Source of the DNA: an archaeon
GTDB lineage: Archaea > Thermoproteota > Nitrososphaeria > Nitrososphaerales > Nitrosopumilaceae
Assembly (NCBI GenBank): GCA_021824845.1
Contig: JAKAJY010000182.1
Span: 1 to 11,120 of the forward strand
Direction of reading: 5' to 3'
Length of the DNA: 11,120 nucleotides
Positions 371 to 10,468 of the stretch are shown here, in pieces (the stretch's first letter is position 1; each line of letters begins with the position of its first letter). A model generated the notes under the pieces. The model was not told where the DNA came from, searched no databases, and saw only the letters and a program-made list of their open reading frames with translations. A program made the position numbers and the translations under genes.

Positions 371-637
371 ATGATGCATGAGGAGATCTCAGAGCACATC
401 AAAAAGCACATGGATTTATTGCTAGGGCAGACAAAGTCATACCTGCCATTCATAAAGACAGCATTCCCAAGCTGGAATCTCACAGATGCTTGCTTTAGTT
501 TGATTGTGGGCAATGCATTTTCAGTGTTTTTGAGTCAATACACAATGAGATTGATCTCGCCAACAGATCAAGACCTTGTAGAATTTGGCCAAATATCAAG
601 CCAGTACAGGGAAAAAATACAAAAACTCTTCTCCTAG
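371..637 (+). CDS. Conserved-looking hypothetical protein, 88 aa
   Basis: I do not recognise this protein. It has 88 residues, begins with two consecutive Met codons (371 or 374) and looks soluble and mostly helical. An acidic/basic N-terminus (HEEISEHIKKHMDLLLG) is followed by a more hydrophobic centre (DACFSLIVGNAFSVFLSQ) and a charged helical C-terminus (REKIQKLF). The central stretch is too short and interrupted to be called a membrane segment. A good TATA box at 343-352 and gene-like composition support it as real. Its TAG stop (635-637) overlaps the stop of the convergent Hsp20 gene by 4 bp. No function is proposed. Confidence 0.7.
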   Translation: MMHEEISEHIKKHMDLLLGQTKSYLPFIKTAFPSWNLTDACFSLIVGNAFSVFLSQYTMRLISPTDQDLVEFGQISSQYREKIQKLFS

Positions 638-1005
638 TCCTCGATTCTTATTTTCTTTCCCTGGAGTGTTTTTGGTATGGTTATTACAAGCCTGCCGTCC
701 GCAAATTTTGCAGATATGTTGTCTGAATCCACGTTTTTTGGCATGGATAGGCTCTTTTTGAAATATTCGTATTGATAGCTTTTTTGGTGCTCATCGCAGT
801 ATGATTCGCGAAGTTTTGCCTCAACTATTATGGTTTGATCCGAGTCGACAAAAACATTGATGTCTTTTTTGTCAACCAGCGGCAGATCAAACTCGAGGAC
901 CCATTTTGATTCGTGTTCCTTGATACAGCTAAGAGGCGAGAGTATTTTTTGCTCCAGATCATCACCAAGCTGGAAAATTGAATTATAGTCTAGTCGTTTT
1001 ATCAT
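634..1005 (-). CDS. hsp20: Small heat-shock protein, Hsp20/alpha-crystallin family
   Basis: This 123-residue protein is an ATP-independent holdase that should bind unfolding proteins in the cytoplasm as large oligomers. A short N-terminal arm (about 1-30) precedes an alpha-crystallin domain (about 32-112). The family signature A-x3-DG-x-L-x-I-x-IP is present as AKFADGRLVITIP (99-111). The C-terminal tail KKIRIED carries the I-x-I motif (119-121) that docks onto a neighbouring subunit. The frame stays open to 1071, but the extra 22 codons lie in another frame of the PAC2 gene. The chosen ATG (1003-1005) is 4 nt past the PAC2 stop and is preceded by GGTGAT, complementary to the usual archaeal 16S rRNA 3' end. 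It is the last gene of a three-gene operon. Confidence 0.92.
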   Translation of the reverse strand: MIKRLDYNSIFQLGDDLEQKILSPLSCIKEHESKWVLEFDLPLVDKKDINVFVDSDQTIIVEAKLRESYCDEHQKSYQYEYFKKSLSMPKNVDSDNISAKFADGRLVITIPKTLQGKKIRIED

Positions 1006-1012
1006 GATATCA
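1006..1012 (-). promoter_or_regulatory. Shine-Dalgarno site deciding the Hsp20 start
   Basis: GGTGAT, read on the minus strand across the PAC2 stop codon, can pair with the archaeal anti-SD sequence ATCACC. It stands 3 nt before the ATG at 1005. It fixes the internal start and implies coupled translation from the PAC2 message. Confidence 0.6.
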
Positions 1013-1732
1013 CCGATAGATCGGGGGCACCTTGGAGGGTAGCTGTTTTTCTTGTTGCTGTATGGCATCAAGTGTTTCTTGCATCAGACTACGGTGCTGG
1101 ATTCGCAAATAGTCAACTCTTTTTTGGATGTCTTTTGTGTCGACTTGGATTTTTAACACCTTTGCCAGAGACGTGATCGCAAAGATCGATGCTTGCGGAT
1201 CAGGAAAAAAGGAATGACATGATGTATACAGCATCAAAAGCGGAATCCTATAGTTTCTAAATACAGTAATGACTGTGGCATCTGTCCCAATAATAGAGCC
1301 GGCAATGAACTTTGGCAAGTCATTATCATACATTAGCTTCTCAAAGGATGGATGTGTTGCAAGACCATACGTTTTTGTGTCCTTGGAATCGGTGCTTTGA
1401 GTATCCACGCCGCTTGGGACAATCACCTTTTTGATGTGGTTTTTTTGGCAAAACTCTGCAATGGATGAGACAAATTCGTGCGCAACCTCTGGGAAAATTG
1501 GAACGTCAGATATTATTGCGTAAAGGTTATCTTTTTGGTAGATTCGAATTGGGCTTAGGATCTCGCCGTTTTCAACAAATAGAGTGGGCGTCATGTCTGG
1601 GTGGTTGATATCACCAATTAGCCTCATTTGCAGATGCGAAATAAGATACGATACGGTAAATGTGCCAATAAGACCATTTCCCGGAAATCCAAGAAGTAAA
1701 ATTTTGTTTGCAGTCTTGGTTTTTGCTTTCAT
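1010..1732 (-). CDS. PAC2 family protein (proteasome-assembly-chaperone-like)
   Basis: This 240-residue protein belongs to the archaeal PAC2 family, related in fold to the eukaryotic proteasome assembly chaperone PAC2 and to archaeal PbaA. The diagnostic N-terminal motif is GFPGNGLIG (15-23), followed by alternating strands and helices with 'SGVDTQST' near 107-114 and a helical, charged tail (about 200-240). Family members lie in the cytoplasm; their role in archaea is not firmly known and may be a chaperone or scaffold function. The start overlaps the upstream CBS gene stop as ATGA, and the Hsp20 start follows 4 nt after its stop, so the three are co-transcribed and probably translationally coupled. 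Sitting between a putative ribosome factor and Hsp20, a protein-quality-control role is plausible but inferred. Confidence 0.85.
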   Translation of the reverse strand: MKAKTKTANKILLLGFPGNGLIGTFTVSYLISHLQMRLIGDINHPDMTPTLFVENGEILSPIRIYQKDNLYAIISDVPIFPEVAHEFVSSIAEFCQKNHIKKVIVPSGVDTQSTDSKDTKTYGLATHPSFEKLMYDNDLPKFIAGSIIGTDATVITVFRNYRIPLLMLYTSCHSFFPDPQASIFAITSLAKVLKIQVDTKDIQKRVDYLRIQHRSLMQETLDAIQQQEKQLPSKVPPIYR

Positions 1733-2880
1733 TGCTGGGAGATTTTTCTAATGCTCAGCTTGTAGCGCTTTTTTGCCCGCTTTGATAACAGGCGCATCAG
1801 TCTTTCAGATATCTCATCAAAGGCCTTGCTAAGATCATAGCCACTCCTTGAGAACATGTACCTTTGATGTGGTGTGATTATTGTGGTAGAAACCTCAAAG
1901 TTGTATCTGCTTCCAGTGCCATGGTTTTTCTTCACGTAGACTTTGGCCTCTTGGATGTCAGGATAGACTCGCTGCAGCTTATCAAGTATCTTTGTGAATT
2001 TCTCCCCGATTATTCCAGCATTATCGTCCTTTGGCATGCCGACGATAAACAACGGAACCTTGCTCTTTACTTTGGTGCCAAGCAGGTTGAGAATGTCCCT
2101 GTATGTTATGATTCCCTGCAGATTGTCCCATAGAGATACAAGACAGAACGTAGTGTCTGCATGAAGCATCTCATCTAGGATGTGATTTAGATCATCAAGT
2201 GGTGCGCAGCTTGCCATTCTGTTTGTGCCAAGGTTTCCAACTGGTACCTCTAATCGATTCATCTTGTTTGATCCAATGTCTCCGCGCCCTACTCGCTCCG
2301 ATGGGATTATTGTATGCAGTATGTGGTTTGAGGTCAGAACCTGGACTATCTTATCTTTTTTCACAACAGGCAGGTGATCCAGTCGTTTACTGCTCATCAG
2401 CATTCTTGCCGTGCTCAGCAAGGTGTTGTTTTCTATGACAAGCGGATTTGCAGTAAAGATCTGGTTTGCCTTTATCCACTTGTTGTCAAGCTCAGATACC
2501 AGCTTTAGGATGTCTTTTGCCGAGACCACTCCTATGATTTGGTCGTCCTTTACTACCGGCGCTGAGCGAATTCTATTATGGGTAAGTATGTTGACTGCCT
2601 TTTCTATGGTATCGCCCTTTTGTAGGCTGGAAATTGGACGCAGAAACGAGCGGACATTCATCTTTACAATGTCTTTTCCAAGCAAGAGATCTCGCGTGTT
2701 TACGTTCAGTGTTACATGGTTTTCCCTGTAAAACGCATCAAATGTGTTATTATGCAGGATGATATGGATTGCCTCAGATACTGTAGAGGCCGGATCAACC
2801 AGCACTGCTTTGCTGATTAGGGAATCGATTTTTTTGTTCATTATGCCACTAAAGTGGTCATGAATTACATCTAGGCTCAT
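1729..2880 (-). CDS. Four-CBS-domain protein with HPF-like C-terminal domain
   Basis: This 383-residue protein has four CBS motifs (about 17-68, 76-130, 137-190, 214-268). They form two Bateman modules of the type that bind AMP, ATP or other adenosyl ligands. The last 110 residues have the order strand-helix-strand-strand-strand-helix: PLFIVGMP, IIGEKFTKILDKLQRVYP, QEAKVYVKK, RYNFEVSTTIITP, QRYMFSRSG, then a basic helix LSKAFDEISERLMRLLSKRA. This is the fold order of HPF/YfiA (S30EA) ribosome-hibernation proteins, including the basic final helix. I infer an energy-sensing, ribosome-binding dormancy factor, but the C-terminal match is by topology and not by a strong signature. It heads an operon with PAC2 (ATGA overlap) and Hsp20, and has a TATA box at 2904-2914. 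It could instead be a CBS regulator with an unrelated ferredoxin-like domain. Confidence 0.8.
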   Translation of the reverse strand: MSLDVIHDHFSGIMNKKIDSLISKAVLVDPASTVSEAIHIILHNNTFDAFYRENHVTLNVNTRDLLLGKDIVKMNVRSFLRPISSLQKGDTIEKAVNILTHNRIRSAPVVKDDQIIGVVSAKDILKLVSELDNKWIKANQIFTANPLVIENNTLLSTARMLMSSKRLDHLPVVKKDKIVQVLTSNHILHTIIPSERVGRGDIGSNKMNRLEVPVGNLGTNRMASCAPLDDLNHILDEMLHADTTFCLVSLWDNLQGIITYRDILNLLGTKVKSKVPLFIVGMPKDDNAGIIGEKFTKILDKLQRVYPDIQEAKVYVKKNHGTGSRYNFEVSTTIITPHQRYMFSRSGYDLSKAFDEISERLMRLLSKRAKKRYKLSIRKISQQ

Positions 2881-2903
2881 GTGTTTTTTGATTCAGAACA
2901 TGA

Positions 2904-2914
2904 ATTAAATAAAT
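2904..2914 (-). promoter_or_regulatory. TATA box for the CBS-HPF / PAC2 / Hsp20 operon
   Basis: On the minus strand ATTTATTTAAT lies 24-34 nt upstream of the ATG at 2880, a good archaeal TATA match and distance. The message would be leaderless. No comparable element precedes the two downstream genes, supporting a single operon. Confidence 0.6.
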
Positions 2915-2931
2915 GATACAATTTCCAGTTG

Positions 2932-2952
2932 TGATATTCAGATTTGATATTC
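2932..2952. repeat. Direct repeat TGATATTC in a divergent promoter region
   Basis: TGATATTC occurs at 2932-2939 and again at 2945-2952, a 13-bp period, just upstream of the TATA box at 2961. The 12-mer AGATTTGATATT (2940-2951) recurs exactly at 321-332, also 21-22 nt upstream of a TATA box. It is a possible activator or repressor site. Confidence 0.35.
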
Positions 2953-2960
2953 TTCTAGGT

Positions 2961-2970
2961 GTATTTAAAA
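2961..2970 (+). promoter_or_regulatory. TATA box for the 284-aa CBS gene
   Basis: GTATTTAAAA lies 25-34 nt before the ATG at 2995. It is a strong archaeal TATA match and indicates a leaderless transcript. Confidence 0.65.
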
Positions 2971-2994
2971 AACTGAACTGGCAGAAGAATTAGT

Positions 2995-3849
2995 ATGAAG
3001 CTAAAAAACCCAAGCCTTGATCAGGTGATCAGAAACGCAATCACAGTAACTGATACCATGAATCTGCTTGAGGCCCGTGAGGTCTTGCTAAGACACCATG
3101 TAGGGCGTATGCCTGTTCTGAACAGTAGCAAAAAGCCAGTGGGCATAATTACAGAAAAAGACTTTGTGCGGGCAATCTACAAGTTCAGCGGAAAAGAGGT
3201 CAGCAAGATCTCAGTTAGGGACTTTATGTCAAAGGATTTGATCACAGTAAAAAAATCAAACACCATTTATGATTGCGCCAAATTGATGCAGTCACATCGA
3301 ATAAGCTCAATTCTGGTCATGGACAAGGACAGACTAGCTGGGATCATAACAAAGACAGATCTAGCATCGGTGTTTTTGACCCAGTCAGTAGAGCCACTCA
3401 AGGTCTCACAAATAATGACCAAGGATGTAGTTACTGTAATGCCAGCAGACTCACTCTTGTTGGTGGAAAGCCTCCTAGTCAAGCACAAAATATCTCGCAT
3501 CATAGTTGCCCGAAACAAAAAGCCAGTGGGCATAATTACAAACCGAGATTTTCTACCTGCAAAGATGCCAAAGTGGATTAGAGAGTTTGCAGACCCAAAG
3601 GAGGTAGAAAAGTACAGGCTAAACCCAAACCCAGACGAGTTCAAAATGAACCAGCTTTCCTACATTTTGTCATTTAGGGCAGAGGACATCATGACCCCAA
3701 ACCCAGTAACGGTAAATGTGGACGAGCAAGTGTCAGCCGCCGTACTAATCATGATACGAAACGGAATTAGTGGTCTTCCGGTAGTAAAAAAATCGGTCTT
3801 GTGTGGAATAGTCACAAAATCCGATGTGGTAAGGGCAATCACTAGCTAA
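2995..3849 (+). CDS. Four-CBS-domain protein
   Basis: This 284-residue cytoplasmic protein is built almost wholly from four CBS motifs: about 9-62, 74-128, 135-188 and 228-284. A charged, proline-containing linker (about 189-227) separates the third and fourth. Typical CBS endings are visible: PVGIITEKDF (48-57), LAGIITKTDL (114-123), PVGIITNRDF (177-186) and LCGIVTKSDV (269-278). The two Bateman modules likely bind adenine nucleotides and report energy state, but no effector domain is fused, so the partner is unknown. CBS1 and CBS3 share an exact 25-bp DNA repeat. The gene is divergent from the CBS-HPF operon, and its stop overlaps the convergent cupredoxin stop by 8 bp. Confidence 0.9.
   Translation: MKLKNPSLDQVIRNAITVTDTMNLLEAREVLLRHHVGRMPVLNSSKKPVGIITEKDFVRAIYKFSGKEVSKISVRDFMSKDLITVKKSNTIYDCAKLMQSHRISSILVMDKDRLAGIITKTDLASVFLTQSVEPLKVSQIMTKDVVTVMPADSLLLVESLLVKHKISRIIVARNKKPVGIITNRDFLPAKMPKWIREFADPKEVEKYRLNPNPDEFKMNQLSYILSFRAEDIMTPNPVTVNVDEQVSAAVLIMIRNGISGLPVVKKSVLCGIVTKSDVVRAITS
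3129..3153 (+). repeat. First copy of a 25-bp intragenic direct repeat
   Basis: The 25 bases at 3129-3153 are identical to those at 3516-3540. Both encode the KKPVGIIT core of a CBS motif, here in CBS1. Confidence 0.85.
3516..3540 (+). repeat. Second copy of the 25-bp intragenic direct repeat
   Basis: This copy falls in CBS3 of the same gene. Identity at synonymous positions, when the rest of CBS1 and CBS3 has diverged, suggests local gene conversion or recent copying. Confidence 0.85.
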
Positions 3850-4365: not shown

Positions 4366-4375
4366 TTATAATATC
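4366..4375 (-). promoter_or_regulatory. TATA box for the cupredoxin gene
   Basis: On the minus strand GATATTATAA lies 24-33 nt upstream of the ATG at 4342. It fits a leaderless archaeal promoter. Confidence 0.5.
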
Positions 4376-4402
4376 AAAGAAGAAAATCAACTCTGAGAAT
4401 TA

Positions 4403-5201: not shown

Positions 5202-5633
5202 TCACTTTATCACCAGTACTGGTGCGGGTGATTTATGCAAAACATAGTTTGATACGCTTCCCAAAAATACCTCTCTTACTGCGCTACGACCGCGCGAGCC
5301 AATCACTACCAGATCAATTTTGTTGTTTTTGATGTATCTTGTGATGGTATAACCCGGTGTTCCATACAGAACGGTTTGGTTTGCCTTGATGTTGCTTTTT
5401 CTGCATATTGATGATGCCTTTTTGAGCACAGATTCCGCAAATTTGCGTTCAATGATTTGGCATTTTATCGGATCAACCACTTGCACTTCAATGCTTGGAA
5501 ACACCGAAACACAATACACCAAGTCTATTGCAGAATCAGACTTGGATGCCAGAAATATTGCCGCACCTAGTGCCCTAAAGGAGTTATCAGAACCATCAAG
5601 CGGAACCAAAATTTTCCCAAGTGAGAACAACAC
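5202..5633 (-). CDS. Universal stress protein (UspA family)
   Basis: This 143-residue single-domain USP has the N-terminal strand KILVPLDGS with Asp13 and the ATP-binding signature G-x2-G-x9-G-S: G112, G115, G125-S126. It is therefore probably of the ATP-binding class. USPs act as cytoplasmic dimers under nutrient or energy stress; the target here is unknown. The longest start is GTG (5631-5633), 26 nt downstream of a TATA-like CTTTAT element, which supports it; TTG one codon later is an alternative. An insert around 45-60 (PSIEVQVVDPIKCQ) is typical of the variable centre. The gene is divergent from the phosphoribosyltransferase gene. Confidence 0.93.
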   Translation of the reverse strand: MLFSLGKILVPLDGSDNSFRALGAAIFLASKSDSAIDLVYCVSVFPSIEVQVVDPIKCQIIERKFAESVLKKASSICRKSNIKANQTVLYGTPGYTITRYIKNNKIDLVVIGSRGRSAVREVFLGSVSNYVLHKSPAPVLVIK

Positions 5634-5655
5634 TATGGAGTTACCCGTATTACGA

Positions 5656-5665
5656 CATAAAGCGC
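5656..5665 (-). promoter_or_regulatory. TATA box for the USP gene
   Basis: On the minus strand GCGCTTTATG (the GC part could be a BRE) lies 23-32 nt upstream of the GTG start at 5633. It favours the GTG start. Confidence 0.45.
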
Positions 5666-5713
5666 CCCCAGATTACCAGGTTTGAATTTCAGTCATGAGA
5701 ATTAACCGACAGA

Positions 5714-5723
5714 GTCATAATGT
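5714..5723 (+). promoter_or_regulatory. Weak TATA-like element for the phosphoribosyltransferase gene
   Basis: GTCATAATGT lies 22-31 nt upstream of the GTG start at 5745. The match is weak and the call rests mainly on position. Confidence 0.3.
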
Positions 5724-5741
5724 TTTGCTGGGAATCATACA

Positions 5742-6170
5742 TTGGTGAAAAAAGGAATTGTCCATGACTACAAGAATTGGAGCGAAATAGAGTCAGCTAT
5801 TACGAAATTGGTAGAAAAACTCAAGGACAAGAATATAGAATTCAAAACAATATCGACAATCAGCAGGGGCGGACTGGTGCCAGCAAGACTCGTAGCAGAC
5901 AGACTAGGCATCAAGCAAATTCTAGTAGATGATGAGTCGGTTTCTTCAGATTCACTTTTTGTTGATGATATCTATGATTCCGGTGAGACATTTAGGAAAA
6001 TAATGCAAAAGGCAGATGATCCAGACAAGTTGGTCTTTGCAACAATTTATGCGAGAAGAAAGAAAAAATATCCAAAGCAGTTAGTATATTCAGAGCTCAC
6101 GCGCGACACTGAATACATTGTCTATCCATGGGATCGATTTGAGCACGGTATGCCATACGAAGCGCATTGA
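5742..6170 (+). CDS. Gpt-like purine phosphoribosyltransferase
   Basis: This protein of about 142 residues has a type I phosphoribosyltransferase fold. SRGGLVPARLVADRLG (41-56) is the pyrophosphate loop and following helix. SLFVDDIYDSGETF (71-84) is the PRPP-binding motif with paired Asp75-Asp76, and YPWDRFE (128-134) is the C-terminal element seen in archaeal xanthine/guanine phosphoribosyltransferases. The likely reaction joins PRPP and a 6-oxopurine to give a nucleotide, for purine salvage. The base specificity is not certain. There is no ATG start: TTG (5742) or GTG (5745) begins the frame, and I would favour GTG. It is followed by a 38-bp gap and a convergent CBS gene. Confidence 0.85.
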   Translation: MVKKGIVHDYKNWSEIESAITKLVEKLKDKNIEFKTISTISRGGLVPARLVADRLGIKQILVDDESVSSDSLFVDDIYDSGETFRKIMQKADDPDKLVFATIYARRKKKYPKQLVYSELTRDTEYIVYPWDRFEHGMPYEAH

Positions 6171-6181
6171 TTTAGAAATCA
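6168..6181. terminator. Small hairpin between convergent genes
   Basis: TGATTT and AAATCA form a perfect 6-bp inverted repeat with a 2-nt centre directly at the phosphoribosyltransferase stop codon. The region after it is AT-rich but has no long T tract. It may help end transcription, though this is weak. Confidence 0.2.
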
Positions 6182-6208
6182 AATCAGTAATTTAGCGATT
6201 GATTAGTT

Positions 6209-6643
6209 TTATTGTGGTTTCATTCGCAAAAGAATCTGCTCAGTTATCCTGCGCATCTCAGAATCAGAGCCTATGCTGCACAGCTTTACTATATCGGATG
6301 TGGTAATCATGCCAACCAGCATGTTATTTTGGACTGCCGGCATTCGGTGTATTCTGCGAGTCTTCATTAGTTGAGCGGCCTCCCACACGGAATCATCAGG
6401 ATTTACCACCACAACGGGTGATGACATTACCTCCTTGACGCTTATGGTGTATGGTTTTCCCTTTGCAATGACTCTTCTTGTCATGTCGCGCTCTGTGATT
6501 ATTCCTACTACGACACCGTTTTCTAAAACTACTATTGCTCCAATGGATGCATCATCCATCATCTTTGCTGCGTCCTGTATGCTCATGGACGAGTCAATTG
6601 AAATGACGTTTTTTTTCATCACATCGTGGACAAGTTCTGTCAT
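6209..6643 (-). CDS. Two-CBS-domain protein
   Basis: This 144-residue stand-alone Bateman module has CBS1 at about 5-60 (ending VVVGIITERDM) and CBS2 at about 70-122 (ending LVGMITTSDIV), plus a short charged C-terminal helix (128-144). Proteins of this kind bind AMP, ATP or related ligands and control unknown partners. Its second half, VMSSPVVVVNPDDSVWEAAQ (72-91) and RRIHRMP (96-102), closely matches the CBS gene at 9989, so the two are paralogs. A TATA box lies at 6665-6674. It is divergent from the hypothetical gene at 6763. Confidence 0.93.
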   Translation of the reverse strand: MTELVHDVMKKNVISIDSSMSIQDAAKMMDDASIGAIVVLENGVVVGIITERDMTRRVIAKGKPYTISVKEVMSSPVVVVNPDDSVWEAAQLMKTRRIHRMPAVQNNMLVGMITTSDIVKLCSIGSDSEMRRITEQILLRMKPQ

Positions 6644-6664
6644 GTGTGTGATGGTCTTTTTGTT

Positions 6665-6674
6665 CTTTAAAAGA
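6665..6674 (-). promoter_or_regulatory. TATA box for the two-CBS gene
   Basis: On the minus strand TCTTTTAAAG lies 22-31 nt upstream of the ATG at 6643, a strong TATA-like match. The 11-mer TCAGAACATGA at 6675-6685, just upstream of it, also occurs at 2893-2903 beside another CBS gene. Confidence 0.55.
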
Positions 6675-6731
6675 TCAGAACATGATTATCAATTCTAGGA
6701 TTATCTCTCAGGTGTGATTTTTCCCTAAGAC

Positions 6732-6740
6732 ATTAAATAG
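6732..6740 (+). promoter_or_regulatory. TATA box for the 124-aa gene
   Basis: ATTAAATAG lies 23-31 nt before the ATG at 6763, indicating a leaderless transcript. Confidence 0.5.
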
Positions 6741-6762
6741 TAAAAAACCGATTCCCAAAAAC

Positions 6763-7137
6763 ATGGTCATACTTGATAACCTTCATGGATATGATCCAAA
6801 AAAGGCAAGAGAGTCACTGGATATGCTCTTAATTGACAGAGGCAACGAGTTCAAGGAGCTTGCAAACGGCATGAAGATTCCAACCACATCAAAAAACTGG
6901 GAGGAAAACATTCTAAAGTTCTGCTTGGACTTTAATGTCTGCTTTTATGATGTTATAACAAAGGTGGAAGGACCAAACGATACAACAGAAGACAATCACA
7001 ATAAGATTCACCAATGCATGACACTAATCAGACAGCTTGCCCGCGGAAAAACAAACATGATAGAGATCACCCACATGCAAAACCTTGCATACACATTGGC
7101 AGAAGAATTCAAGTCAATTTACAAAAGACTAAGCTAG
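6763..7137 (+). CDS. Helical protein of unknown function, 124 aa
   Basis: I do not recognise the family. The 124-residue protein looks soluble and largely helical. It has two likely N-terminal helices (DPKKARESLDMLLIDRGNEF and following), a middle with three Cys (C53, C58, C84) and aromatic residues, and C-terminal helices (about 80-94 and 100-122, NLAYTLAEEFKSIYKRL). There is no signal peptide or membrane segment. A good TATA box and normal composition make it a real gene. Its TAG stop overlaps the convergent zinc-finger gene by 4 bp. A regulatory or adaptor role next to USP genes is possible but not shown. Confidence 0.75.
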   Translation: MVILDNLHGYDPKKARESLDMLLIDRGNEFKELANGMKIPTTSKNWEENILKFCLDFNVCFYDVITKVEGPNDTTEDNHNKIHQCMTLIRQLARGKTNMIEITHMQNLAYTLAEEFKSIYKRLS

Positions 7138-7412
7138 GGCAGAACAGAGATCTGGCCCTCTATCAAATTCTGATAGGCCCACAATAACAGTTCTTTTTTT
7201 GTGTGCGACCATTTTAGGTGTCCTGCATATTCAGTTTTGCTTGGAATCAATCTTGGATATGCACCGAGTGGACACTTTTCATAATTATCCACAATATGCG
7301 CAATGATTTTTTCACGGTGGCCTGCCAGGTGTATTAGCCATTGTTTTTTGTCGGCATGAATTGTCCTTGGGTTGTCACAAAAAACACAAAACGCTCCATG
7401 ATGCATGCTCAT
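7134..7412 (-). CDS. Small C2H2-like zinc-finger protein, co-translated with a USP
   Basis: This 92-residue protein has a first finger C9-x2-C12-x15-H28-x3-H32, a near-classical C2H2 spacing. A second, incomplete finger-like unit has C47 and H65-x4-H70 but only one Cys. The loop CPLGAYPRL (47-55) lies between them. The frame is open to 7433, but the ATG at 7410-7412 overlaps the upstream USP stop as ATGA and is the likely start. It probably binds zinc and may contact DNA, RNA or protein. Coupling to a USP suggests it is made in a fixed ratio with that protein. Its stop overlaps the convergent 124-aa gene. Confidence 0.75.
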   Translation of the reverse strand: MSMHHGAFCVFCDNPRTIHADKKQWLIHLAGHREKIIAHIVDNYEKCPLGAYPRLIPSKTEYAGHLKWSHTKKELLLWAYQNLIEGQISVLP

Positions 7413-7828
7413 TTTACTATCAACACAGAACAAAGCGAGTGGTTTGCTATTTTTGTGGAAACGCTTCCAAGCATGAATCGCAATACTGCGCCAAGGCCCT
7501 TGCTGCCAACCACGATAAGATCGGTCCTTGACTTTTTGGAATACTGGATTATTTGCTCAGATACGTTTCCCTCTTTTATGATGACGTTTGGCTCAATTCC
7601 CTGAGATTTTGCCAGCCTTTGTGCTTTCAGTATGGTGTCTTGCGCGTATTTTCTGAGAATTTTTGTGTATTCGGATCCCGCAAAGACATCGGATTTGAGG
7701 GTTTTATCCACCACGTACATTATGGTAAGATCCGAGTCGTATTTTTTTGCAACATCACACGATAGTTTGATTGCCTTGTCTGAGTGCTTGGATCCATCAC
7801 AGCACACCAGAATTTTGCAAAACACCAT
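7409..7828 (-). CDS. Universal stress protein (UspA family)
   Basis: This 139-residue USP has Asp11 in KILVCCDGS and the ATP-binding signature G108-x2-G111-x9-G121-S122. The first strand carries a Cys pair (C9, C10), and C4, C24 and C133 add an unusually high Cys count among the five USPs here. It is first in a two-gene unit: its TGA overlaps the ATG of the zinc-finger gene. The ATG at 7826-7828 lies 23-32 nt downstream of a TATA box. It is divergent from another USP operon across a 132-bp promoter region. The client or signalling target is unknown. Confidence 0.94.
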   Translation of the reverse strand: MVFCKILVCCDGSKHSDKAIKLSCDVAKKYDSDLTIMYVVDKTLKSDVFAGSEYTKILRKYAQDTILKAQRLAKSQGIEPNVIIKEGNVSEQIIQYSKKSRTDLIVVGSKGLGAVLRFMLGSVSTKIANHSLCSVLIVK

Positions 7829-7850
7829 TCACACCAAGACAGCAAAAATC

Positions 7851-7860
7851 GTATTTATTG
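7851..7860 (-). promoter_or_regulatory. TATA box for the USP / zinc-finger unit
   Basis: On the minus strand CAATAAATAC lies 23-32 nt upstream of the ATG at 7828, a good TATA position. Confidence 0.5.
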
Positions 7861-7930
7861 AATAAAGACAAATCTCAGGGCTGATAATTTGGAATCAATC
7901 ATTACTAGGGATGATAATCATACCAAGATG

Positions 7931-7940
7931 TTTAAATTAA
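7931..7940 (+). promoter_or_regulatory. TATA box for the USP-USP operon
   Basis: TTTAAATTAA lies 21-30 nt before the ATG at 7961. Its place inside the longer open frame from 7889 argues that translation starts at 7961. Confidence 0.6.
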
Positions 7941-7960
7941 AAAGCCAAAACCATATCATC

Positions 7961-8389
7961 ATGGTAAAAAATCAAATCAAGCGAATTCTTGTCCCAATGG
8001 ACGGCTCCAAGACATCCGAACGGGCACTGGACCAGGCGATCGAGATGGCTCGTGCAACCCATGCAAGAGTCCTTGGCTTGAATATCATTCCGTTTTTGCC
8101 AGCAGAGTTTGTACCGGCAGTCTCGCCCTACAAGATCTACCAAAGAAAGGAGGCTGGAATATTTTTAGAGCGAGCCAAAGTCAAGGCAGCAAAGCACGGA
8201 ATTCTTTTCACATATGCCATATTGTATGGCAGCCCAGTTGAGCAGATAATCGGTGTTGCAAAAAAGAAAAAGGCTGATCTCATAGTGATTGGTGCCAGGG
8301 GCAAGGGAAGAATAAAAGAGTTGTTCCTGGGATCGGTATCAAACGCAGTCTTGCACAAATCACAGATTCCGGTTCTTTTGGTAAAATGA
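7961..8389 (+). CDS. Universal stress protein (UspA family)
   Basis: This 142-residue USP has Asp14 in RILVPMDGS and the ATP-binding signature G111-x2-G114-x9-G124-S125. The frame is open from 7889, but the ATG at 7961 is chosen because a TATA box lies just before it and the family normally starts a few residues before the first strand. The loop between the first two helices is rich in Pro and aromatics (IIPFLPAEFVPAVSPYKIY, 42-60), a variable region in the family. Its TGA overlaps the ATG of the next USP by 4 bp, so two different USPs are made from one message and may form a heterodimer (inference). Confidence 0.93.
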   Translation: MVKNQIKRILVPMDGSKTSERALDQAIEMARATHARVLGLNIIPFLPAEFVPAVSPYKIYQRKEAGIFLERAKVKAAKHGILFTYAILYGSPVEQIIGVAKKKKADLIVIGARGKGRIKELFLGSVSNAVLHKSQIPVLLVK

Positions 8390-8850
8390 CATATCAGAGA
8401 ATTCTTGTGCCGTTTGATGGCTCCAAATATTCCAAAAAGGCACTAGAGCACGCAGTGGACATTGCAAAAAACAATGACGCAATAATTCATCTTTGTACCA
8501 TAATCACTACTGGCGGCGTGGTTCCTCCAGGCTCGCTTTTGGGCCTGGTGCGAGAGTCGGCGCGCGGAACCCTGCAAAAAAGGCTGCTTCAGGCATCAAA
8601 GATAGAAACCGAGCGAATGCAAAACGAGCAGGTAAGGTTTTGCAAATCATGTGGGATCAGAGCATACCCAAAGATGGCAGTAAATGGAAATGTTGCAGAG
8701 CAGATACTAGATATGGCAAAAAAGAAGTCAGCCGATCTTATTGTGATTGGCAGCCAAGGATTGCACGGCGTTGCCAAGCTAAAGTCACTTGGTAGTGTAA
8801 GCAGAAAGGTATCAGAATATGCTAGCTGTCCTGTTTTGATTGTGCGCTAA
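8386..8850 (+). CDS. Universal stress protein, longer variant
   Basis: At 154 residues this is the longest USP in the window. It has Asp11 in RILVPFDGS and G122-x2-G125, but then ten, not nine, residues before G136-S137. A central extension (about 45-95) includes PPGSLLGLV, a long helix and a C86-x2-C89 pair, which could bind a metal or form a disulfide. The start is an ATGA overlap with the preceding USP. The 3' end overlaps the convergent phosphoribosyltransferase by 29 bp. ATP binding is likely but less sure than for its neighbours because of the altered spacing. Confidence 0.9.
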   Translation: MTYQRILVPFDGSKYSKKALEHAVDIAKNNDAIIHLCTIITTGGVVPPGSLLGLVRESARGTLQKRLLQASKIETERMQNEQVRFCKSCGIRAYPKMAVNGNVAEQILDMAKKKSADLIVIGSQGLHGVAKLKSLGSVSRKVSEYASCPVLIVR

Positions 8851-9460
8851 ACTTGTGCAGTATTCCAACTATAATGGAATCAGGTATTTGATCAAATTTT
8901 CTATAAAATTGCCCGACTGATGAGAATTCTTTTGGCGTTTCCAGAGATATGATTTGTACTCCAAATCTTTTGATAATCTCTGCTGTCACATATGGTATCA
9001 CTGGCGTTGCCAGAATTATTTTGGTTGTTTTTTGCTGTAGCCATTTTATGATGGCACAAACCGTAGCACCAGTTGCAATTCCATCATCTACTAGTATGAC
9101 GGTTTTGTTGCCAAAGTTGTAGTTTGTGTGGCCCCTATACGCCTGAATCTGTCTTGCTACCTCGGATTTCTTTTTGTTTATTTCTTCTTGGAATTTGGGA
9201 TCAGACGAGTATCTCTCCCAGTCATGCCCAAAATACATCACACCATCGTATGATATAGCGCCAATTGCGTATTCAGGATACTCAGACGGTGTTATTTTTT
9301 TGGAAATTATTACATCCAGTGGCATATCAAGGATTTTTGCCAGCTCGGAGCCAACTATGACACCACCGCGGGGAATTGCCAGTATTATGCAGTCTGTTTT
9401 TTTGAGATGTTCCAGTTTTTCTGATAAGAGCTTTGCAGCATGAACCCTATCATGAAACAT
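8822..9460 (-). CDS. COG1926-type phosphoribosyltransferase, coupled to a USP
   Basis: This 212-residue type I phosphoribosyltransferase-fold protein has LAIPRGGVIVGSELA (27-41) as the pyrophosphate-loop region, KKITPSEYPEYAIGAIS (54-70), a charged helical hood with QAYRG (106-110), and the PRPP-binding motif VILVDDGIATGAT (121-133) with Asp125-Asp126. These match the 'predicted phosphoribosyltransferase' family COG1926, whose substrate is unknown. The frame is open to 9664, but the extra 68 codons lie inside the USP gene. The ATG at 9458-9460 shares a base with the USP stop (TAATG), so translation is coupled. The last 29 bp overlap the convergent USP gene. Confidence 0.9.
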   Translation of the reverse strand: MFHDRVHAAKLLSEKLEHLKKTDCIILAIPRGGVIVGSELAKILDMPLDVIISKKITPSEYPEYAIGAISYDGVMYFGHDWERYSSDPKFQEEINKKKSEVARQIQAYRGHTNYNFGNKTVILVDDGIATGATVCAIIKWLQQKTTKIILATPVIPYVTAEIIKRFGVQIISLETPKEFSSVGQFYRKFDQIPDSIIVGILHKFSAQSKQDS

Positions 9461-9879
9461 TATTTTATTATCAGAACAGGAATCTGAGATTTTTGCGTCA
9501 CATAGTGAGACACGCTGCCCAAGACAAACTCCCGGGCATTTGATTGCCCCCGGGATCCCATTACTATGAGGTCTGATTGGTTGTTTTTTGCAAAATGCAC
9601 CAGCTTGAATCCTTCGTTTCCGCACAATATTTTTTGGTAAAACAAAACTCCGTTTTTTGCGCACCTTGACTTTGCCTCATCTAGTATTTTCTTGCCGCCC
9701 TCGGCTAGCGCTTTGCCAAGCTTTGATGCTGGCTTTGCCACATTTACCGAAAACAGTGGAATCACGAACACGCCAGTAATTGTTCCCTGGTTCTGCCTTG
9801 CCAGATAAATTGCCTGGTCTAATGCCTTGTATGAGGGCTTGGAGCCATCCAGTGCAACTAGGATCTTTTTGTGCGCCAT
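9460..9879 (-). CDS. Universal stress protein (UspA family)
   Basis: This 139-residue USP has Asp11 in KILVALDGS and the ATP-binding signature G108-x2-G111-x9-G121-S122. It begins at the ATG 9877-9879 with a TATA box 22-31 nt upstream. Its second half (GSRGQSNAREFVLGSVSHYV) is most like the USP at 5202, so the two may be close paralogs. It is first in a two-gene unit with the COG1926 phosphoribosyltransferase, joined by TAATG. This pairing suggests a nucleotide-related shared task, although none is known. It is divergent from a two-CBS gene. Confidence 0.94.
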   Translation of the reverse strand: MAHKKILVALDGSKPSYKALDQAIYLARQNQGTITGVFVIPLFSVNVAKPASKLGKALAEGGKKILDEAKSRCAKNGVLFYQKILCGNEGFKLVHFAKNNQSDLIVMGSRGQSNAREFVLGSVSHYVTQKSQIPVLIIK

Positions 9880-9900
9880 CGTTCTGTCTGATACATGATC

Positions 9901-9910
9901 AAATTAAAGA
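9901..9910 (-). promoter_or_regulatory. TATA box for the USP / COG1926 unit
   Basis: On the minus strand TCTTTAATTT lies 22-31 nt upstream of the ATG at 9879. Confidence 0.5.
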
Positions 9911-9960
9911 GATGTTGTGATTTTCTAGATTGATTTTCAGCTCTGATAATTCACAAGAAT

Positions 9961-9970
9961 GTGATATAGT
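9961..9970 (+). promoter_or_regulatory. Weak TATA-like element for the right-hand two-CBS gene
   Basis: GTGATATAGT lies 19-28 nt upstream of the ATG at 9989. It is a weak match but favours an ATG start over the GTG at 9974. Confidence 0.3.
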
Positions 9971-9988
9971 GTTGTGGTATGGTCATAC

Positions 9989-10468
9989 ATGATGGCCCAA
10001 ACCCAGCCAACCATACTGGTCAAAGATATCATGACCAGGTCCCTTGTGATGGTGGATTCCTCATCTACCGTAAATGAGGCAGCCAAACTAATGGAAAAAG
10101 CAAAAGTGGGCTCGGTTATTGTCACGGAAAAAAGCATCCCAATTGGAATAATGACAGATAGGGACTTTGCAATAACAATTGCCGCCCATGCGTATCCAAT
10201 TCATACAAAGGTAAAGCAGGTAATGTCGTCTCCTTTGGTTCATATCGGCCCAAACGAGGAGGTCTGGCTTGCTGCAGATCTGATGTATTCACGCAAAATA
10301 CGGAGACTGCCAGTGTTAGACGAGGACGAGCTATTAGGAATAGTTACGGCAACGGATTTTGTAAAGTTGTATACGGTGTGTAACAGAGAGGACACTAGAA
10401 ACATGTACTATCATGCGCTAACTAGAATCTTTGATGATAACAACGAACAGCAGGTAGCAAGCTTTTAG
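9989..10468 (+). CDS. Two-CBS-domain protein
   Basis: This 159-residue stand-alone Bateman module has CBS1 at about 10-63 (ending PIGIMTDRDF) and CBS2 at about 75-127 (ending LLGIVTATDFV), with a helical, acidic tail (130-159). It is a paralog of the CBS protein at 6209: both have VMSSP (78-82 here), then P-x3-VW-x-AA-x-LM and R-x-I-x-R-x-P. Ligand binding is probably adenine nucleotide, and the partner is unknown. The frame is open from a GTG at 9974; ATG at 9989 or 9992 is preferred because of the TATA-like element at 9961. Its TAG overlaps the stop of the convergent transporter gene by 4 bp. Confidence 0.9.
   Translation: MMAQTQPTILVKDIMTRSLVMVDSSSTVNEAAKLMEKAKVGSVIVTEKSIPIGIMTDRDFAITIAAHAYPIHTKVKQVMSSPLVHIGPNEEVWLAADLMYSRKIRRLPVLDEDELLGIVTATDFVKLYTVCNREDTRNMYYHALTRIFDDNNEQQVASF

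Follow-up and report, generated by a model that had tools for sequence, protein, structure and literature searches.

A probable HibA ribosome hibernation factor of a Nitrosotenuis-like ammonia-oxidizing archaeon and the CBS-domain gene divergent from it

The stretch of DNA analyzed here (the window; 11,120 nucleotides of contig JAKAJY010000182.1, assembly GCA_021824845.1) comes from an archaeal genome that is 61% complete, and it contains a gene that we call hibA-like (Table 1). A preliminary description, made from the sequence before any comparison with databases, had read this gene as four CBS motifs fused to a domain resembling the ribosome hibernation protein HPF and had proposed it as an energy-sensing hibernation factor. 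The coordinates given there were correct, and the coding strand is the minus strand, with the start codon at 2878-2880 and the stop codon at 1729-1731. The encoded protein consists of a CBS module (approximately residues 1 to 268), an HPF/RaiA-type domain (approximately residues 270 to 372), and a basic tail. On its upstream side the gene is separated by a short promoter region containing tandem repeats from a divergent, standalone gene with four CBS domains (the 4xCBS gene), and genes of the PAC2 and Hsp20 families follow on its downstream side. Near full-length matches to the hibA-like protein at 40% identity or more were present in 23 of 61 genomes, its own included, with identities in the others going down to 25%.

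Table 1. Features of the hibA-like locus, in window coordinates, and corresponding HPF-only loci of related genomes
Feature	Position	Strand	Evidence or remark
hibA-like gene, 383 amino acids	1729..2880	minus	Open reading frame; Pfam CBS and S30AE; collinear profile match to 9sr9_H
HPF/RaiA-type domain, residues ~270-372	1765..2073	minus	Pfam; profiles against PDB; hhalign to E. coli HPF and RaiA
Adenosine-site motif G256-I-I-T259-x-x-D262 in CBS4 (presumed)	2095..2115	minus	Conserved in alignment
CBS3-CBS4 stretch, 21 residues (192-212), corresponding to the "PTC loop" of HibA	2245..2307	minus	Row lengths; gapless alignment to 9sr9_H
Divergent promoter region hibA/4xCBS, 114 bp	2881..2994		Sequence; alignment of 13 genomes
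TATA-like boxes	near 2903-2914 (hibA side), 2961-2969 (4xCBS side)		Visual inspection
Tandem repeat of three 13-bp units, consensus TGATWTTCAnnnn	2919-2931 (degenerate), 2932-2944, 2945-2957	plus	Candidate operator
Standalone 4xCBS gene, 284 amino acids, long conserved CBS3-CBS4 insert	2995..3849	plus	Pfam CBS, E value 3.8e-54; alignment
PAC2-family gene	1010..1732	minus	Pfam PAC2, E value 5e-30; 4-base overlap between its start and the stop of hibA
Hsp20 small heat-shock protein gene, after PAC2	634..1071	minus	Pfam HSP20, E value 7.9e-16
HPF-only genes at the hibA position	loci L095-L102, L105-L107, L109, L111		Divergent from 4xCBS gene

The Pfam CBS family matched the 383-amino-acid protein with a whole-protein E value of 7.1e-24 and in four separate stretches when matches up to an E value of 10 were counted. 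These four stretches, together with an alignment of the whole module to the solved chain 9sr9_H described below, bear out the four CBS motifs that had been proposed. For the C-terminal part, a search with an S30EA-type profile had been suggested, and the Pfam family Ribosomal_S30AE (PF02482) did match residues 297 to 372, narrowly, with a marginal score of 24.2 bits (cut-off, 23.7). Used alone at an E value of 0.01, PF02482 recovered 3 of the 30 rows of an alignment of relatives (the 30-row alignment). Because the score lay so close to the cut-off and so few rows were recovered, we checked the C-terminal domain by profiles.

When a family profile built from 27 C-terminal domains (A3) was searched against 177,635 distinct PDB sequences, its four best matches were ribosome hibernation promoting factors (E values of 0.0015 to 0.033). 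A wider C-terminal profile, built from 25 sequences spanning the phylum, gave 40 matches among the PDB sequences at E values up to 1. Of these, 25 carry names such as HPF, RaiA, or YfiA, and two are the CBS-containing chains 9sr9_H (E value 5.9e-4) and 9l96_a (E value 0.085). Aligned by hhalign with HPF and RaiA of Escherichia coli K-12, the wider profile reached a probability of 95.3% and an E value of 2.2e-8, in agreement with the profile searches that an HPF-like domain follows the CBS module. The C terminus of the protein is basic, and the net charge of the HPF domain is positive in 30 of 30 rows. On the strength of the Pfam match, the PDB profile matches, and the hhalign result, we conclude from sequence comparison that the C-terminal domain is of the HPF/RaiA type. 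The protein shares this domain with bacterial HPF and RaiA (YfiA) but differs from them in its N-terminal CBS module and in falling short of the yfiA equivalog model TIGR00741, which gave 13.3 bits for the full-length protein and 16.5 bits for the C terminus alone against a cut-off of 40.9.

The same architecture is known from HibA, a protein of four CBS domains and an HPF/RaiA domain that was described by cryo-electron microscopy on ribosomes of Pyrococcus abyssi; the same study detected it in 47% of archaeal genomes (PMC13324472, 2026; this and the other published reports are cited here from excerpts of their text). HibA of P. abyssi is Q9UYR4, and PDB entry 9SR9 is cited in the same report; from this citation and from the length of the chain, 392 amino acids, we infer that 9sr9_H is Pyrococcus HibA. 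A profile of the 30-row alignment aligned to 9sr9_H as a single stretch, with profile positions 15 to 368 on chain positions 5 to 372 (E value 2.3e-26). Between CBS3 and CBS4 lies a stretch that is 21 residues long in 27 of 30 rows and shows no gap against the loop of 9sr9_H; in P. abyssi HibA this PTC loop, whose function is given in PMC13324472, comprises residues 190 to 207. According to the same source, the CBS module of HibA belongs to a clade, HibA-CM, that stands next to CM-5, and the HPF domain of HibA carries two archaeal insertions. Because of its domain order, its collinearity with 9sr9_H, the loop length, the adenosine motif considered below, and the basic C terminus, we file the gene as HibA of a Nitrosotenuis-like ammonia-oxidizing archaeon, an assignment in which we have high confidence. 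The match to the published family bears out both the hibernation-factor reading and the architecture in the preliminary description. The idea was right and is mostly known, since the HibA family had already been published; what is found here is a known kind of factor in another host group.

Several observations weigh against this assignment. At an E value of 0.01 only two CBS stretches of the hibA-like protein pass Pfam, so that Pfam by itself gives little support to the outer CBS repeats. The score of the collinear match to 9sr9_H comes mainly from the CBS part, and the CBS part cannot tell HibA from standalone CBS modules: chain 9znf_5 scored 99.4 bits, compared with 96.0 bits for 9sr9_H. 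For the C-terminal domain, the A3 profile failed to recover 9sr9_H among the PDB sequences at E values up to 1, and its alignments by hhalign with a single RaiA or a single HPF of E. coli gave probabilities of 5.8% and 4.3%, respectively, which are uninformative. Of the 40 matches of the wider profile, 13 are unrelated, and a fusion with a phage coat protein ranks second (E value 1.8e-4).

Compared with HibA of P. abyssi, the hibA-like protein has the same succession of four CBS domains and an HPF/RaiA domain, a length of 383 versus 392 amino acids, the CBS3-CBS4 loop, and the T-x-x-D of CBS4. It differs in a C-terminal domain that has diverged so far that A3, built from the family itself, misses the Pyrococcus chain, and in the CBS3 motif, whose Asp is mostly His here (24 of 30 rows). 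The divergent 4xCBS neighbor and the tandem repeats are further differences, as both go unmentioned in the excerpts of PMC13324472. Dri (Nat Microbiol 2025, cited through PMC13324472) likewise places a CBS module on the ribosome but has two CBS modules and lacks an HPF domain. The archaeal HPF-only proteins resembling HPF/RaiA that are named in PMC13324472 share their domain with the hibA-like protein but are without the CBS module, and those of the family studied here nest inside the HibA group in a tree (see below).

The two-part architecture extends beyond the close relatives. At 31 loci across the phylum, picked for an HPF match, the profile matches for HPF and for the CBS module shared one open frame in every case (31/31), so that the CBS-plus-HPF frame extends by degrees into remote families of the phylum. 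These frames were mostly 369 to 416 amino acids long, and the CBS scores dropped to 30 to 43 bits in the most distant of them. As a separate observation, PDB chain 9i5v_14, which has 401 amino acids, is named RaiA, and was matched by the wider profile at residues 305 to 401, is another long protein with such a domain at its C terminus.

The preliminary description had also mentioned archaeal proteins for ribosome dimerization or hibernation, some with CBS domains. HibA is a hibernation protein with CBS domains; dimerization is not what PMC13324472 describes for it. A dimerization factor regulated by its CBS domains would be comparable to aRDF, an archaeal factor that exists and forms 30S-30S dimers (PMC11724365). 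HibA, the closest solved relative, is instead described on 70S and 30S particles (PMC13324472), and we consider a dimerization factor very improbable here.

On the ribosome, the HPF domain of HibA occupies the mRNA channel of the 30S subunit, and the CBS module fills the empty tRNA sites on the 50S subunit (PMC13324472). The same report states that HibA inhibits translation in vitro and that its deletion in Thermococcus barophilus slowed regrowth from stationary phase and lowered 70S ribosomes by about 60%. By analogy with this homolog, the hibA-like protein would bind ribosomes and protect them.

A nucleotide might take part in this process. The stretch G-I-I-T-x-x-D in CBS4, which we take to be the adenosine-site motif, is conserved throughout the 30-row alignment, with G256, I257, T259, and D262 invariant in all 30 rows. 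In CBS3, S184 is invariant in 30 of 30 rows and T183 in 29, and the motifs of CBS1 and CBS2 are degenerate in the same alignment. Conserved residues in CBS3 and CBS4 next to degenerate CBS1 and CBS2 motifs fit HibA, which has one AMP/ATP site per module, at the CBS3/CBS4 interface (PMC13324472). Because the motif has been kept, it is possible that nucleotides have a role in ribosome engagement, release, or sequestration.

The earlier proposal went further, namely, that the CBS module, on binding AMP or ATP, acts directly as the switch for ribosome binding and that low energy charge alone turns dormancy on. In its favor, the adenosine motif is invariant in all 30 rows, and the CBS module of P. 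abyssi HibA binds nucleotides, with dissociation constants of 12 uM for AMP, 65 uM for ADP, and 113 uM for ATP (PMC13324472). The switch itself does not follow from the published experiments: AMP or ATP at 5 mM left the states of reconstituted P. abyssi 70S:HibA largely unchanged, without a clear effect on the ribosome-bound forms, and no nucleotide was seen in native HibA-ribosome complexes (PMC13324472). We consider such a direct switch unlikely. Nucleotide binding may rather tune the availability or release of the protein than act as a simple on/off switch.

We next consider how widely the gene is distributed. With the C-terminal profile we searched 250 genomes of the family, 131 of them of good quality; this family (group f1 of the compared genomes) is one that we take to be GTDB family Nitrosopumilaceae. 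The profile matched in 128 of the 250 genomes and in 86 of the 131 good-quality ones. Genomes were classed by open-frame length, with full-length frames having at least 340 amino acids and HPF-only frames 100 to 140, a division by length in which CBS was not checked genome by genome. By this measure, the 128 matching genomes comprised 80 with a full-length frame (5 of which also had a short one), 46 with an HPF-only frame, and 2 with fragments; the corresponding numbers for the 86 good-quality genomes were 52, 33, and 1. The HPF-only count includes one genome (G138) whose gene is cut by a contig end, and the double occurrence in another (G077) is probably a split gene. In a sentence on marine plankton, PMC13324472 places Nitrosopumilaceae among the most notable lineages without identifiable factors, and it reports HPF-only proteins in Nitrososphaerales. 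Our counts are in tension with the text of that report on Nitrosopumilaceae as excerpted, which is not a proven contradiction. Either HibA or a reduced form of it is present in ammonia-oxidizing archaea, many genomes of a family said to lack such factors among them, and the series from HibA to HPF only to nothing among relatives can be compared with habitat.

To place the short genes, we took 15 loci with a short HPF gene, 13 from the 46 HPF-only genomes and 2 from genomes with both kinds; one of them (L103), cut by a contig end, was set aside. When 64 HPF domains were placed in a tree, the 14 remaining HPF-only domains formed one clade (support 100/100) on a long branch. This clade sits inside the HibA domains of the family (family fork, 100/99), in a tree with few columns and weak inner forks. 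At 13 of the 14 loci, L104 being the exception, the HPF-only gene lies at the hibA position and is divergent from the same 4xCBS gene. Because the tree nests them inside the HibA group, the HPF-only genes of the family look as if they were derived by loss of the CBS module. An origin of HPF-only genes by such a loss was already proposed in PMC13324472, and the kept locus position supports it.

The persistence of the HPF domain alone in related genomes also indicates that the HPF part has a function of its own. This bears on another explanation, in which the protein is a HibA relative with a minor role on the ribosome, has its main partners elsewhere, for example, among DNA replication or repair proteins, and uses its ribosome-type domain as an RNA- or protein-binding unit. 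Pulldowns in which HibA of Thermococcales was associated with proteins of recombination and replication (PMC13324472) speak for it. With the HPF domain surviving without the CBS part in one clade of 14 genes, and with its net charge positive in every row, a mainly nonribosomal role appears improbable, and we retain HibA as the preferred assignment.

The PAC2 gene and hibA probably form one operon. Neighbors were counted starting from 63 loci, of which 60 had a hibA match of at least 1,000 bp (3 partial ones were dropped), and then among those with enough flanking sequence. A divergent standalone 4xCBS gene was found within 400 bp of hibA at 29 of 56 loci, a PAC2 gene directly downstream of hibA at 26 of 52, and an Hsp20 gene after PAC2 at 25 of 50; because the loci are related, these counts are not independent. 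Among the 27 loci without the divergent 4xCBS gene, 17 have identities of 43% or less (some from Nitrosotalea, some more distant) and 10 have identities of 44 to 59%.

Among solved structures, chain 9zni_6 matched the 4xCBS family best (130.5 bits); the next one reached 96.0 bits. Entries 9znf, 9zng, and 9zni have a uS12 sequence in common with 9o17, which is the 70S ribosome of Methanosarcina acetivorans (PMC12605026). Since uS12 is common to 9zni and 9o17, the nearest solved relative of the 4xCBS neighbor is a CBS chain that belongs to a ribosome entry. From this relationship, the 4xCBS protein is a candidate for a second ribosome-binding factor or a regulator. Its identification as HhpR proper was tried and rejected, as model NF053603 gave 50.4 bits against a cut-off of 520. 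None of the genomes of nine relatives that were searched had an HhpR above this cut-off; the model is narrow, and the protein may belong to the wider CM-3 group.

The tandem units in the promoter region stand between the two divergent TATA-like boxes. As a criterion for the repeat we required two GATWTTC units at a distance of 13 bp and allowed no more than one mismatch, with the reversed unit as a control. Such a pair was present in 29 of 29 hibA/4xCBS intergenic regions, compared with 0 of 29 for the control. Over the window and loci L032 to L114 together, there were 115 unit-pair matches versus 3 reversed ones, in related loci and with overlapping counts. From this conservation, the tandem repeats are a candidate operator, which may control hibA expression together with the divergent 4xCBS gene. 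Other findings limit this conservation. In the 13-genome alignment the second unit is degenerate at two loci, L009 (genome G004) and L015 (genome G016), and among 13 HPF-only intergenic regions the threshold was reached in 5. In G004 there is no repeat site near hibA at one mismatch.

Exact matches to the repeat number 20, spread over 15 of 61 genomes, and several of them lie elsewhere in their genomes. The closest relative, a one-contig genome (G012), has only two, one between hibA and 4xCBS and the other approximately 7 kb away. The latter is the counterpart of a further site in the window, at 9919-9938 on the plus strand, in the divergent promoter between a Usp-like gene and a gene with two CBS domains (2xCBS). 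Another site in the window, with one mismatch, lies at 4369-4388 on the minus strand, before a cupredoxin gene. At one mismatch, the pattern occurred at 8 to 18 places in five Nitrosotenuis-group genomes, versus 0 to 2 for the reversed control, and at 1 to 32 places in seven other genomes, versus 0 to 10. A genome-wide regulon for the tandem repeat was considered and rejected. Most places lie outside the hibA locus and may reflect coding sequence, and our claim is therefore limited to the sites at the hibA locus. No regulator of the tandem repeat was found, and among the ten listed of 173 matches of a literature search none dealt with such a repeat operator, which is weak evidence of novelty. 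The conserved repeats offer a testable handle on the archaeal control of a ribosome hibernation gene.

Taken further, these features could be read as a hibernation switch made of two parts. Both HibA and the divergent 4xCBS protein would be ribosome-binding factors under one tandem-repeat operator, and in Nitrosopumilus-type relatives without the CBS module of HibA, the HPF-only protein and the 4xCBS protein, as two chains, would jointly take over the task of HibA. We put this forward tentatively, as a possibility that we doubt more than we favor. Standalone modules of classes CM-1, 2, 4, and 5 are reported to co-occur rarely with HibA (PMC13324472); if the two-part switch were true, it would be an exception to that rarity. 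The partner gene and the shared repeat context at hibA may be new.

The neighbors of the hibA-like gene are of a stress type (PAC2, Hsp20, Usp, and CBS), which speaks for the HibA assignment. Farther along the window, positions 5202-10468 hold, close together, five Usp-like genes (one of them checked by Pfam), two 2xCBS genes, and two genes with a phosphoribosyltransferase domain, and this stress-type cluster is kept in part in related genomes.
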